Positions 28,889-39,232 of a stretch of DNA of 64,000 bases are shown one piece after another (position 1 is the first letter of the stretch; each line of letters begins with the position of its first letter). The notes below the pieces were generated by a model that saw only the letters and a list, made by a program, of their open reading frames with translations, had not been told where the DNA came from and searched no databases. The DNA is from Clostridium rhizosphaerae (lineage in GTDB: Bacteria; Bacillota; Clostridia; Clostridiales; Clostridiaceae): NCBI RefSeq assembly GCF_016765585.1, contig NZ_JAESWC010000008.1, forward strand, positions 62,001-126,000. Reading direction: 5' to 3'. A program made the position numbers and the translations under genes.

Positions 28889-29395
28889 TTATAATTTAAA
28901 CTTTTTAGATAAATCAATATAATTTTTAGCCGATTGTTCTAAATTTTTCTTTTCTTCTTCAGTAAGTTCACGAACTACTCTTCCTGGAGAGCCTAAAACC
29001 ATAACACCAGAAGGTATTTTCTTTCCTCCAGTTACTACGCTCCCAGCTCCAATAATAGTATAGTCACCTATTTCTGATCCGTCTAATACTATTGCTCCCA
29101 TTCCTATCAAACAGTAGTTTCCAACCTTACAAGCATGCACTATAGCTCCATGGCCAACAGTAACATACTCACCAATTTCTGTTGAATACTTTTCTCCTGC
29201 TATATGTACAGTGCAATTATCCTGTATATTAGTTCCTTTCCCAACTCTTATATAATTTTCATCACCTCTTAAAACAGCTCCGAACCAAATACTACAGTCC
29301 TCTTCAATGACTACATTACCTATAATATCAGCACTTTCTGCCACAAAAACACTTTCATGTATCTTTGGATATTTATCTTCATATTTATAAATCAT
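28889..29395 (-). CDS. gamma carbonic anhydrase family protein
   Basis: A 168-residue left-handed beta-helix protein. Hexapeptide repeats run from about residue 20 to 135. The metal-binding histidine pattern is seen in TVHIAGEK, TVGHGAIVHACKVG and conserved GRVVREL near the end. Family members include true zinc or iron gamma-carbonic anhydrases and related proteins of undetermined activity, such as YrdA and PaaY types; this short form without acidic loop is of the YrdA type. GAGGTG precedes the ATG. Confidence 0.88.
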   Translation of the reverse strand: MIYKYEDKYPKIHESVFVAESADIIGNVVIEEDCSIWFGAVLRGDENYIRVGKGTNIQDNCTVHIAGEKYSTEIGEYVTVGHGAIVHACKVGNYCLIGMGAIVLDGSEIGDYTIIGAGSVVTGGKKIPSGVMVLGSPGRVVRELTEEEKKNLEQSAKNYIDLSKKFKL

Positions 29396-29423
29396 AACTT
29401 CACCTCTTAATAAAATTGTAAAC

Positions 29424-29762
29424 TAAAATGGCCGTAGGCTGCGGCGTAAAGACTTAGAGCCTAGTGTAGAAAATAATATTTTACTTTATGATTGCTTTGC
29501 GTATGTTCTAAGGCTTGCAATACTGAAAAGCTAAGAGCCTCTATAAATTCGCTTCAGCTTCTTGTTTCTTTAACAGCCGCAAGCTTTAAAATATCTTTAG
29601 TAAACTTAAAATACTTTTGGCTTGCTCAGAAGAGAGGCTCTAAGCTTTTCAACATTACTTCGCCAAGAACATGGGCAAAGTTATCAATCAAATTTAAATA
29701 TTATTTCCTACACCTGCTCTCGGTCTCTACACCCAGCCTATGTAGCTTTTATACGCCATTAT
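29424..29762. repeat. long palindromic non-coding element, copy A
   Basis: One of two related elements filling the 1-kb gene-free stretch 29396-30395. The ends pair (AATGGC near 29428 with GCCATT near 29755). Inner paired arms follow: GTAGAAAATAATATT with AATATTATTTCCTAC, CTTTGC..ATGTTCT with AGAACATGGGCAAAG, and TGAAAAGCTAAGAGCCTCT with its near complement ending at 29650. A 21-base block (29624-29644) is identical, inverted, to 30124-30144. No open frame is convincing. See copy B. Confidence 0.7.
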
Positions 29763-30024
29763 AATTATCTATATATACGACTTACTCAATGATCGTTTTT
29801 ATAATTAAAACTTTTGGCTTTGTTAAAAGCTAGTAATGACATTTTTATCATTCACCTATTTAAATATAAACCTATAAAAATATTTAAATATTTACTGCAA
29901 AAATGCTGGTTTGCAGCAGATTTGCTTTCTACAATATTGAAGAATATGCTTACATCAACATTATTATTAAACAGCGCAAAACTTTTTAATGTTTAACCTG
30001 ATTAATTATAGAGCTACAAAAGTA

Positions 30025-30345
30025 TTATAGGCCTGCTTTAAAGTATGTAGGGCAGTGTAGAAAATAATATATAAGATTAATTGAGTACTTTGCCCCTGTT
30101 CTTGGTGAAGTGAAGTCATAAAACTTAGAGCCTCTCTTCTGAGCTAACAAAAAATACAATATGATATTAAAATTTATCATAGAAGCTTCGCTTTAAAGAT
30201 AGCAAAAGTTAAAGCGAATTTTTAGAGGCTCTTGGTTTTATGAATTTACGAACCTTAGAACATCCGCAAAGTAATCACTAATATTATATATTATTTTCCA
30301 CGCATAGCCCTGCGGACTTTAAAGCAAAGCCTGTGCTACCTTTAT
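30025..30345. repeat. long palindromic non-coding element, copy B (inverted relative to A)
   Basis: Read on the minus strand it aligns along its length with copy A: GTGGAAAATAATAT, then CTTTGCGGATGTTCTAAGG, AAGAGCCTCT, the 21-base identical block, and an AAGAACAGGGGCAAAG arm. Its outer arms (AGGC..TGCTTTAAAGT types) differ from those of A but are again self-complementary. Between the copies, 29763-30024 is AT-rich and shows nothing recognisable. Function unknown; could be a mobile palindromic element or a structured RNA. Confidence 0.7.
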
Positions 30346-30353
30346 TATATCAA

Positions 30354-30391
30354 AAAATCAGCAGCATCACTAACAATGATACTGCTGATTT
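30354..30391 (-). terminator. terminator of the amino-acid permease gene
   Basis: AAATCAGCAG and its complement with inner ATCA/TGAT pairing, directly after the permease stop on the minus strand, followed by a T-rich stretch. Confidence 0.8.
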
Positions 30392-30395
30392 ATAA

Positions 30396-31754
30396 TTAAG
30401 CTGCTTTATTAAAATCTCTTAACTGTTTTATTTTTGCAGAGTCCTTAAGCTTCATATAAAGATAGAATGGAACTCCAAATAGTATCAATAAGAATCCGTA
30501 CATAACTGTTTCAGATCCTGAACCGTAAATAGCCCATACGGCATAAGCAAAGCCTGCTAAAGGAACTATAGAAGCCTTTATAAACTTCCAAACATTAAAA
30601 TCAGCATCACGCTTTACGAGCAATATAATCTCTGCCGCTGCGGTGCTGGCATACATTGGCAAATAAGCTAAAGTAGCCAATAGTATTATAAAGTTAAAAG
30701 CTGATAATAGTGACTTTGAGTAATTCATAACTAACAATATATTTGCAAGTACAGCACTTATTATAAGGGATACATGTGGTGTATTATATTTTGGATGAAT
30801 CTTTGCAAAAGCTTCTGGGAAAATTTTATCTTTTCCAGCCGCATATGACATACGAGCTGTTGCAAGAAGCCAGCCTACTGTAGTTCCTAATACACTTATG
30901 ATACATGCAACCAAAAGTACATTTGTAATCCCGCTGCCTAAGTATTGAGCTAATATGTCAACTATAGGAGAGGAACTTTTAGCAAGTGCTTCCTGTGACA
31001 TAGAGCCCATTGCAAAGAAATTAATAGCCATATACATAACAATTGCAATTGTCATTCCAAGTATAGTACTCAGTTTAACATTTCTTTCGGGATTCTTTAT
31101 CTCTCCTGCTGCAACAGATGCTGTTTCAAAGCCGATAAACGCCCATAATGTAGAAGCCGCAGCTGCTGGCACAGTAGCTATGCCTTTATCCACTGGAAAC
31201 ATAGGCTTTAGTAATGCAGGATTAAAATGATATGCTGTTATACCTATAAAGAAAACAAAAAGTAATAGTTCAAATATAGTAATGACCGTTTGAGTTATAC
31301 CTGCTTTTTTAACTCCCATTATATTAATAATTGTAAATATCCAAAGTATTGAACTCGTGTATAAAAATGCAATAAAATGATTATTGTTGATAGCAGGTAT
31401 TAATTTACCTGTATAACTAGCTACTGCAGTAATTATAGCTGCATTTCCAATCCATGAACCATTCCAATATAACCATGCGTTTAAAAATCCCATAAAGTCT
31501 CCAAAAGCTAATTTTGAATACTCGTAGGGGCCACCAGTCTTAGGTATCTTAGAGCCTAAGTTTGCAAAGGAAAGTGCAAGTAAAATAGAACCTAATCCAG
31601 TTAATATCCACGCAAGCATGGTAGAGCCTGGACCTGCTTTAGTTGCAAGCGTTGCAGGAAGCATAAATATCCCTGAACCCATCATATTTCCTACTACAAG
31701 TGCTGTAGCTATAACTAACCCTAATTCCTTTTTTAAGTGGGTACTTTTTTCCAT
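30396..31754 (-). CDS. APC-superfamily amino acid/polyamine permease
   Basis: A 452-residue membrane protein with twelve predicted hydrophobic segments. The TM1 signature GNMMGSGIFMLPA and TGGPYEYSKLAFG in TM3 are typical of the basic amino acid/polyamine antiporter group (agmatine-putrescine, arginine-ornithine types). WAFIGFETASVAAGEIKNP is the conserved TM6 block. The substrate is not determinable; no decarboxylase gene is adjacent that would define it. GGAGG precedes the ATG. Single gene with its own terminator, lying between the palindromic elements and nrdJ, divergent from the latter. Confidence 0.9.
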   Translation of the reverse strand: MEKSTHLKKELGLVIATALVVGNMMGSGIFMLPATLATKAGPGSTMLAWILTGLGSILLALSFANLGSKIPKTGGPYEYSKLAFGDFMGFLNAWLYWNGSWIGNAAIITAVASYTGKLIPAINNNHFIAFLYTSSILWIFTIINIMGVKKAGITQTVITIFELLLFVFFIGITAYHFNPALLKPMFPVDKGIATVPAAAASTLWAFIGFETASVAAGEIKNPERNVKLSTILGMTIAIVMYMAINFFAMGSMSQEALAKSSSPIVDILAQYLGSGITNVLLVACIISVLGTTVGWLLATARMSYAAGKDKIFPEAFAKIHPKYNTPHVSLIISAVLANILLVMNYSKSLLSAFNFIILLATLAYLPMYASTAAAEIILLVKRDADFNVWKFIKASIVPLAGFAYAVWAIYGSGSETVMYGFLLILFGVPFYLYMKLKDSAKIKQLRDFNKAA

Positions 31755-39085: not shown

Positions 39086-39119
39086 TAAAAGCCTATGTGC
39101 AATTTCACATAGGCTTTTA
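39086..39119 (+). terminator. terminator after degV
   Basis: TAAAAGCCTATGTG and its complement around a six-base loop; T-rich on the right edge. It is symmetrical and probably also ends minus-strand transcripts from the nitroreductase gene. Confidence 0.85.
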
Positions 39120-39230
39120 TCTATATATAATGCAATGAAGTTCTTACATTGATGATGTCACAAAATATCCAATCTTCAAGGATTTTTGGGACATCATCAA
39201 TGTATTAGAACTTCTGCATTGTATATATTA
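39120..39230. repeat. ~110-nt long hairpin element with conserved core, copy 1
   Basis: Outer arms of about 38 bases (ATAATGCAATGAAGTTCT... with GAACTTCTGCATTG...) pair almost perfectly. The centre reads CAAAATATCCAATCTTCAA followed by GGATTTTTGGGA (39161-39192 area). This centre recurs nearly unchanged at 59811-59834. It lies immediately after the stop codon of the nitroreductase gene (-). See copy 2 at 59768-59861. Confidence 0.72.
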
Positions 39231-39232
39231 AT

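Follow-up and report, generated by a model that had tools for sequence, protein, structure and literature searches.

An inverted pair of long palindromes in Clostridium rhizosphaerae is very probably a gene-less, MITE-like mobile element

The TA-type MITEs ERIC, Correia/NEMIS and RUP are about 100–200 bp long, and ERIC occurs inside transcription units with an effect that depends on its orientation, according to the accessible part of one account (PMC2229807). The accessible part of another gives MITEs a size range of 70–300 bp (PMC3733652), and the element described here falls outside it. Among pneumococcal repeats, BOX overlaps the 3′ ends of genes and encodes a stop codon, as stated in the available portion of PMC3049150.

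The window analysed here is a stretch of 64,000 nucleotides from the genome of Clostridium rhizosphaerae. A preliminary description had noted, between an amino-acid permease gene and a gamma carbonic anhydrase gene, two inverted copies of one element that carried a shared 21-base block, were each self-complementary and were explained by no gene. We found that these are two palindromic modules, L and R, which face each other within a single element of about 940 nt. The features of the locus are as follows.

28889–29395, minus strand: gamma carbonic anhydrase gene (Hexapep match; enzyme name from the preliminary description)
29400–29406, minus strand: host Shine-Dalgarno sequence GAGGTGA, directly outside the A-end and shortly 5′ of the ATG of gene 28889–29395
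29407–30346, minus strand: whole element, read from B-end to A-end, the direction of both flanking genes (from the repeated unit and comparison of copies)
29407–29427, no strand: A-end terminal inverted repeat TTAATAAAATTGTAAACTAAA (from comparison of copies)
29407–29764, no strand: module L, self-complementary (from complementarity, comparison of copies and folding)
29624–29644, plus strand: 21-base block GCTCAGAAGAGAGGCTCTAAG, with an inverted counterpart at 30124–30144
29808–29815, no strand: left 8-bp target duplication AAACTTTT (from reading the flanks)
29816–29978, plus strand: nested element of 163 nt with short inverted ends, the left being GGCTTTGTT and the right end reading AACAGCGC
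29979–29986, no strand: right 8-bp target duplication AAACTTTT (from reading the flanks)
30011–30346, no strand: module R, self-complementary and inverted relative to L (from complementarity, comparison of copies and folding)
30124–30144, minus strand: inverted copy of the 21-base block GCTCAGAAGAGAGGCTCTAAG
30355–30391, minus strand: terminator-like hairpin 3′ of the permease gene, just outside the B-end (consensus scan)
30396–31754, minus strand: amino-acid permease gene (AA_permease_2 match)

In the window copy, the B-end thus comes after the terminator-like hairpin of the permease gene and the A-end abuts the GAGGTGA of the carbonic anhydrase gene; the B-end tip, which is TAAGTAGATTGCGAA in other copies, is eroded here, so that position 30346 is approximate. 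The inverted relationship of the modules was confirmed by arms 29612–29713/30055–30156, which are 81% complementary, and arms 29489–29573/30193–30277, which are 76% complementary. Within each module, 54-nt arms are 74% and 23–24-nt arms 88–91% complementary, and both modules, as well as the element as a whole, are palindromic over nearly their full length. Folded as DNA, the modules reached −68.8 and −74.1 kcal/mol (z −8.9 and −13.0; none of 100 shuffles was as low), and the whole element had a z of −13.6 against 20 shuffles. The two central helices that had been described as differing in sequence while keeping their pairing are both present. The element contains no open reading frame longer than 90 aa and its region no tRNA, as had been noted, and at gathering score no Rfam family matched in the window, with one match at E 0.97 when the threshold was loosened to E 1. 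What did not hold was the extent: the two modules, with a unit size of about 330–360 nt each, stood, but the element really runs from 29407 to about 30346, its spacer holds a second element and the modules are not separate insertions. Rather than having inserted independently, L and R together make up a composite that is found repeatedly in the genome.

The genome-wide search bore out the supposition that the element is repeated. In the 4.85 Mb (27 contigs) of the same genome we delimited 34 copies and one additional degenerate piece (L197); at least 112 aligned pieces were found among the best 40 of 162 candidates scored, the long ones being 77–92% identical to the window copy. Alignment and BLAST served to compare the modules. 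Nearly whole L and R modules are present in 11 of the 34 copies (L001–L006, L009, L011–L013 and L021), and the remaining copies lack hairpin tops or a module, often through joins that connect facing positions of the palindrome. Ten of the 34 copies measure 933–1057 nt, the single-module copies L025 and L048 are 359 and 362 nt long, and only the cut-down copies L052 and L062 are near 210 nt. Identity among 22 L modules ranged from a minimum of 81% to 93% for the highest pair (median 87%). Their tree is star-like, with a median end branch of 0.049, which points to an amplification burst that was over some time ago.

Outside this genome the module is rare. It matched in 2 of the 206 genomes of the family that were searched, namely the genome itself and G001, a relative of the same genus. 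G001 has one copy, 75–80% identical and located 5′ of uvrC, with neither recognisable tags nor the nested element; for comparison, the genes of the window region are 69–78% identical in G001. Judged by LrgB, the closest named relative was Clostridium hydrogeniformans, at 68%. The flanks of this copy matched nothing in the own-genome loci compared, except another repeat. A search with the whole element across 225 genomes of the order gave 8 with matches, of which the 6 besides the genome itself and G001 matched only the core of the nested element, and among 39 near genomes 7 matched: the genome itself, G001 and five with single short matches at E 3e-4 to 9e-4. Because few candidates were scored per genome in these searches (2–12), diverged copies could escape them. 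Plasmid and phage records gave no match to the element, and the end pattern retrieved nothing from the collections genome_contigs and viral_contigs, which may omit the genome itself.

Comparison of the 34 copies with 1.2 of the 4.75 Mb of G001 revealed empty orthologous sites at L016, L020, L024, L028 and L049, where the flanks align 19–127 nt apart and the element is absent. The L017 site is similar and less clean, part of its left flank having no counterpart. At the site of the window element, about 10 kb separates the flanking genes in G001, where the carbonic anhydrase gene follows its Shine-Dalgarno sequence with no element between. No paralogous empty sites were seen in the genome itself. 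With at least five orthologous sites empty in G001, the element is a mobile one.

The ends of the element are inverted repeats, TTAATAAAATTGCGAA and TAAGTAGATTGCGAA, mostly with TA at their tips. Comparison of flanks separated two end types, in which the shared inverted sequence comes next: B, which is TA-AGTAGATTGCGAA, and A, which is TA-ATAAAATTGCGAA; the end type of the element is written AATTGCGAA. TA tips were found at 24 of the 29 B-ends scored, at 25 of the 29 A-ends and, in a proportion that counts against the explanation favoured below, at both ends in only 15 of 24 copies. These counts omit the A-ends of L008, L028, L029 and L049, which were guessed, and the eroded or uncertain B-ends of L001, L003, L004, L005 and L011, which were retained among the 34 B-ends scored for Shine-Dalgarno sequences; the A-end of L024 is approximate. 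Regarding target duplications and empty sites, both of which the preliminary description had proposed to look for, the empty sites were found but a duplication longer than 2 bp was not: none stood out, the best z being 2.1 across all offsets tried, and the empty sites in G001 are too diverged to show a TA duplication.

The spacer of the window copy is occupied by the 163-nt nested element. A second set of copies carries the nested element in the opposite orientation to the modules, flanked by a different duplication close by, TAATATTT, whereas the spacer of copy L024 is uninterrupted. We infer that the nested element entered the composite at least twice; the module tree fails to separate the sets that carry it at one or the other place. 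Solo relatives were present at eight fetched places in the genome (L050 and L053–L059), with an 8-bp duplication, AAATTATA, at L054 and approximate or absent duplications at the other seven. The AT-rich core (29855–29912) has short matches in six other genomes of the family (loci L199–L204) among the 225 of the order that were searched, and at several of these loci the match adjoins a motif resembling CATGCTGG/CATGCGGG. No transposase was recognised in the three core-carrying loci whose open reading frames were listed. At one of the six loci (L201), a reverse-transcriptase open reading frame (RVT_1, 235 aa) lies about 0.5 kb from the core match. We take the end sequence of the nested element to resemble those of IS6-type elements. 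Unlike what would be expected for the partner of an IS6-type element, no match to the IS240-type transposase (PF13610) was found in the genome. The 8-bp target duplication is a feature shared with IS6/IS26-type elements, as described in the accessible part of PMC6807381.

The preliminary description had taken the preserved pairing as a sign either of selection on structure or of a mobile palindrome that is copied while folded. The first of these found no support at the present sites. Among copies in the genome, compensatory cells numbered 16 in L (shuffles: mean 11.4, maximum 18) and 9 in R (mean 6.0, maximum 13), and thus lay within the range of the shuffles. When 11 truncated rows of the 48 were included, L gave 49 and R 31 such cells, compared with shuffled means of 22 and 19; dropping those rows reduced the excess to 16 against 11.4 and 9 against 6.0. 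Pairs survived barely more often than expected for independently mutating arms (0.886 versus 0.874 in L, 0.874 versus 0.866 in R). The excess of sense-strand G-U over A-C was also small: 268 versus 237 in the modules, counting only rows with more than 110 aligned pairs (P = 0.18), and 616 versus 552 in the whole element (P = 0.07), with cells taken as independent. In four consensus or single modules, G-T/A-C mismatches stood at 3/4, 2/4, 5/6 and 3/6. Near-equal G-T and A-C, together with arms that mutate almost independently, do not support selection on RNA after insertion.

By contrast, pairing was kept between the modules and between species, so that co-variation, which was missing among the copies of this genome, did appear at these deeper comparisons. 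Watson-Crick pairs of the L consensus that had changed on both sides were still Watson-Crick in 20 of 24 cases in R, 13 of 16 in the L module of G001 and 23 of 29 in its R module, compared with 0–7 of 9–18 in slid controls; taking the structure from the L consensus favoured it over these controls. Single changes that break pairs numbered 25, 30 and 27, respectively, which equals or exceeds the pairs kept by double change (20, 13 and 23) and weighs against the explanation that we favour. These comparisons suggest that pairing was kept in the copied lineage, probably as DNA, either because it mattered or because it was corrected, and that it is slowly lost after insertion. The second idea, that of a mobile palindrome copied in a folded form, is consistent with the dispersed copies, their defined ends, the empty orthologous sites and the pairing kept across the two module lineages and across species.

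One alternative is that the palindrome is kept solely by arm-to-arm correction, through template switching or conversion, with folding unnecessary for movement. The body and the nested element are together reversed against the terminal tags in five copies (L003 and L014 of the first set; L005, L006 and L016 of the second), which suggests strand exchange within the palindrome; these reversals and the deletions that join facing positions make such exchange probable. Frequent correction should, however, show in the present copies, and yet pair survival is only marginally above independence. We regard maintenance by correction alone as improbable. Arm-to-arm correction could nevertheless maintain a palindrome with no role for folding, which counts against the mobile folded element that we favour.

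Relative to neighbouring genes, the copies are strongly biased in both position and orientation. Gene contexts were assigned by an automatic open-reading-frame rule (at least 70 aa) and Shine-Dalgarno sequences called from a motif list of our own. When the 34 copies are read from B to A, the nearest open reading frames run with the element in 18 cases and against it in 2, while 9 contexts are convergent and 5 divergent. Where the neighbouring genes are co-directional, 18 of 20 copies therefore have the same orientation (P = 0.0004), or 15 of 17 when guessed A-ends are left out (P = 0.002). A Shine-Dalgarno sequence with an open start codon follows the A-end in 14 of 30 copies and the B-end in 0 of 34 (P = 3e-6); L024 was assigned its Shine-Dalgarno sequence by a special rule in the script, and without it and the five uncertain B-ends the counts are 13 of 29 versus 0 of 29 (P = 4e-5). 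Stop codons preceded by 60 or more open codons occur at 14 of 34 B-ends and 8 of 30 A-ends. Orientation also agrees with GC skew in 27 of 34 copies (P = 0.0008 against one half), gene direction being confounded with skew. Leaving out copies with |skew| below 0.06, 24 of 28 agree, and in the convergent and divergent contexts among the 28 agreement stands at 8 to 3; the four that disagree are L014, L024, L030 and L051, of which L024 and L030 have their A-end on a Shine-Dalgarno sequence. As module bodies occur in either orientation against the tags, the orientation bias belongs to the ends and not to the body. Its cause may be a choice of target, selection acting on copies once inserted, or replication direction. 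A symmetric, TA-targeting element is not predicted to show such a bias, which is another point against our preferred explanation.

One possible explanation is a mobile palindrome that targets the ribosome-binding site, or transcribed single-stranded DNA there, so that it comes to lie with the B-end at a stop codon or a terminator and with the A-end against the 5′ border of the next Shine-Dalgarno sequence. Operons would then be colonised one-way, with their genes unbroken, and movement would need folded DNA. We put this forward tentatively and consider it unlikely. Within the open-licence titles and the beginnings of abstracts surveyed, we found no report of repeats in register with Shine-Dalgarno sequences, nor of the present family.

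The same contexts bear on whether the element acts as RNA, that is, whether the copies are transcribed between genes and their hairpin is selected for mRNA processing, stability or insulation. The shared orientation of 18 of the 20 copies between co-directional genes and the termination of the element on a Shine-Dalgarno sequence in 14 of 30 are in keeping with such a role, as are two G-U pairs in the sense-strand pairing of the terminal tags and the slight surplus of G-U over A-C. That surplus is non-significant even with cells treated as independent, however, compensatory changes among copies fall inside the shuffle range, module bodies are found in both orientations against the tags, both modules are nearly whole in only 11 of 34 copies, and Rfam gave no match. 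We consider a role as RNA very unlikely. RNA-level selection was set aside as a candidate: the G-U pairs of the paired tags are suggestive, but the mismatch test gave no support.

A further reading is that of a giant GTAG-tagged repeat of the REP/BIME type, which a Y1 (HUH) transposase would move in single-stranded form, with one tag per unit at the foot of the hairpin, no target duplication and strand-specific insertion. Exact GTAG stands directly 5′ of the first strong stem at 19 of 29 B-ends, and the TAG within the tag is the stop codon of the upstream open reading frame in 5 of 34 copies, as has been described for GTAG REPs in the accessible part of PMC3733652. Contexts that are mostly unidirectional (20) or convergent (9) among the 34, the lack of a duplication beyond 2 bp and the tracking of GC skew in 27 of 34 copies agree with this reading, and the genome has one intact Y1 gene:

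L196:2823–3791 (contig C6 of the same genome), minus strand: intact Y1 transposase, 322 aa, the sole intact Y1 match

This gene resembles the TIRYT genes as described in the accessible part of PMC3733652. It is flanked by a 36-nt inverted repeat containing GGGACGGTTAAC, which is unrelated to the ends of the element, and its protein scores 57 against the cut-off of 80 of the NCBIfam REP-transposase model. Moreover, the ends of the element are true inverted repeats, REPs are only 20–40 nt long and the strand preference is not strict, with 4 of 28 copies disagreeing once those with |skew| below 0.06 are left out, two of them on Shine-Dalgarno sequences. We consider a REP/BIME-like repeat rather unlikely. 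The resident Y1 gene was set aside as the partner transposase, its own flanking inverted repeats being different. A broken Y1 remnant is located at C4:58319 of the same genome.

We searched the genome for the transposase families PF01797, PF13358 and PF13610. DDE_3 (IS630-type) had no match, and no transposase sharing the element ends was found among the three families, which counts against the explanation that we favour. The end pattern, with at most 2 mismatches, gave 81 matches, compared with 25 for a reversed-pattern control. Inward-facing pairs of the pattern less than 6 kb apart belonged to one copy of the element or to two neighbouring copies, apart from a single 1.4-kb pair that encloses ordinary genes.

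Taken together, the window element is very probably one copy of a non-autonomous, gene-less, MITE-like element, an inverted pair of long palindromes, that was amplified in a clostridial lineage and moved in trans at TA sites, with DNA folding needed, or tolerated and maintained. In this model, a transposase supplied in trans would recognise the inverted ends with the aid of the folded form and insert the element at TA-containing sites in gene junctions. Copies that gave rise to further copies would have needed the DNA to fold into a hairpin or cruciform, or would have tolerated and retained that ability, and each copy would drift after insertion. Movement in trans, TA as target or duplication, a folded intermediate and DNA rather than RNA as the folded molecule are inferred.

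Two other repeats were observed alongside this family. One, palindromic, about 117 nt long and strongly hairpin-forming, occurs at 39116–39232 of the window and at L169:8632–8781 (94% identical). With at most 40 candidates scored per genome, at least 61 aligned pieces were found in the genome itself and at least 22 in G001, and two further genomes of the genus gave none. Element copy L013 contains one such repeat, and Rfam gave no match in the loci carrying it. A third repeat, about 70–170 nt long and folding into adjacent hairpins, was found at L154:8739–8908, in other fetched regions and in G001, its pieces being 70–97% alike.

The element family is a natural experiment on why mobile repeats of bacteria are palindromes: the lineage that was copied has largely kept its pairing, inserted copies hardly, if at all, and the nearly equal mismatch counts point to DNA as the molecule that folds. 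If the Shine-Dalgarno register reflects target choice, it would represent a new, harmless lifestyle within operons and point towards a transposase not yet recognised. If not, this is another unusually large, probably inactive repeat family.

Comparison with known repeats places the element in familiar company. Like ERIC, Correia and RUP, as the accessible part of PMC2229807 presents them, it is intergenic, lacks a transposase gene, has inverted ends with TA tips and forms a stem-loop along its whole length. It differs from them in size, with about 360 nt for single-module copies and as much as 1.06 kb for the pair, in a junction that is often in register with a Shine-Dalgarno sequence and in that no partner transposase was found; this comparison was made through Rfam and BLAST and otherwise by description. 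With GTAG REPs and BIMEs and their RAYT and TIRYT transposases, in the part of PMC3733652 available, it shares GTAG at one palindrome end, units in opposite orientation, a place beside gene 3′ ends and TAG stops supplied by the tag; GTAG REPs are 20–40 bp there, whereas the present element has inverted ends, is roughly ten times as long and coexists with a Y1 gene that carries other repeats. The pneumococcal BOX, RUP and SPRITE are likewise small interspersed repeats, and all of these families mirror coding-strand bias, with about 61–63% on the leading strand in pneumococcus and 27 of 34 by GC skew here; the accessible part of PMC3049150 describes no paired-palindrome build for them. We class the element with the palindromic MITE/REP-like repeats, as a new form that is oversized and dimeric, and as neither ERIC, RUP nor REP. 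Its class is familiar; what is unusual is its size, its paired build and its tendency towards one-directional placement immediately 5′ of ribosome-binding sites.
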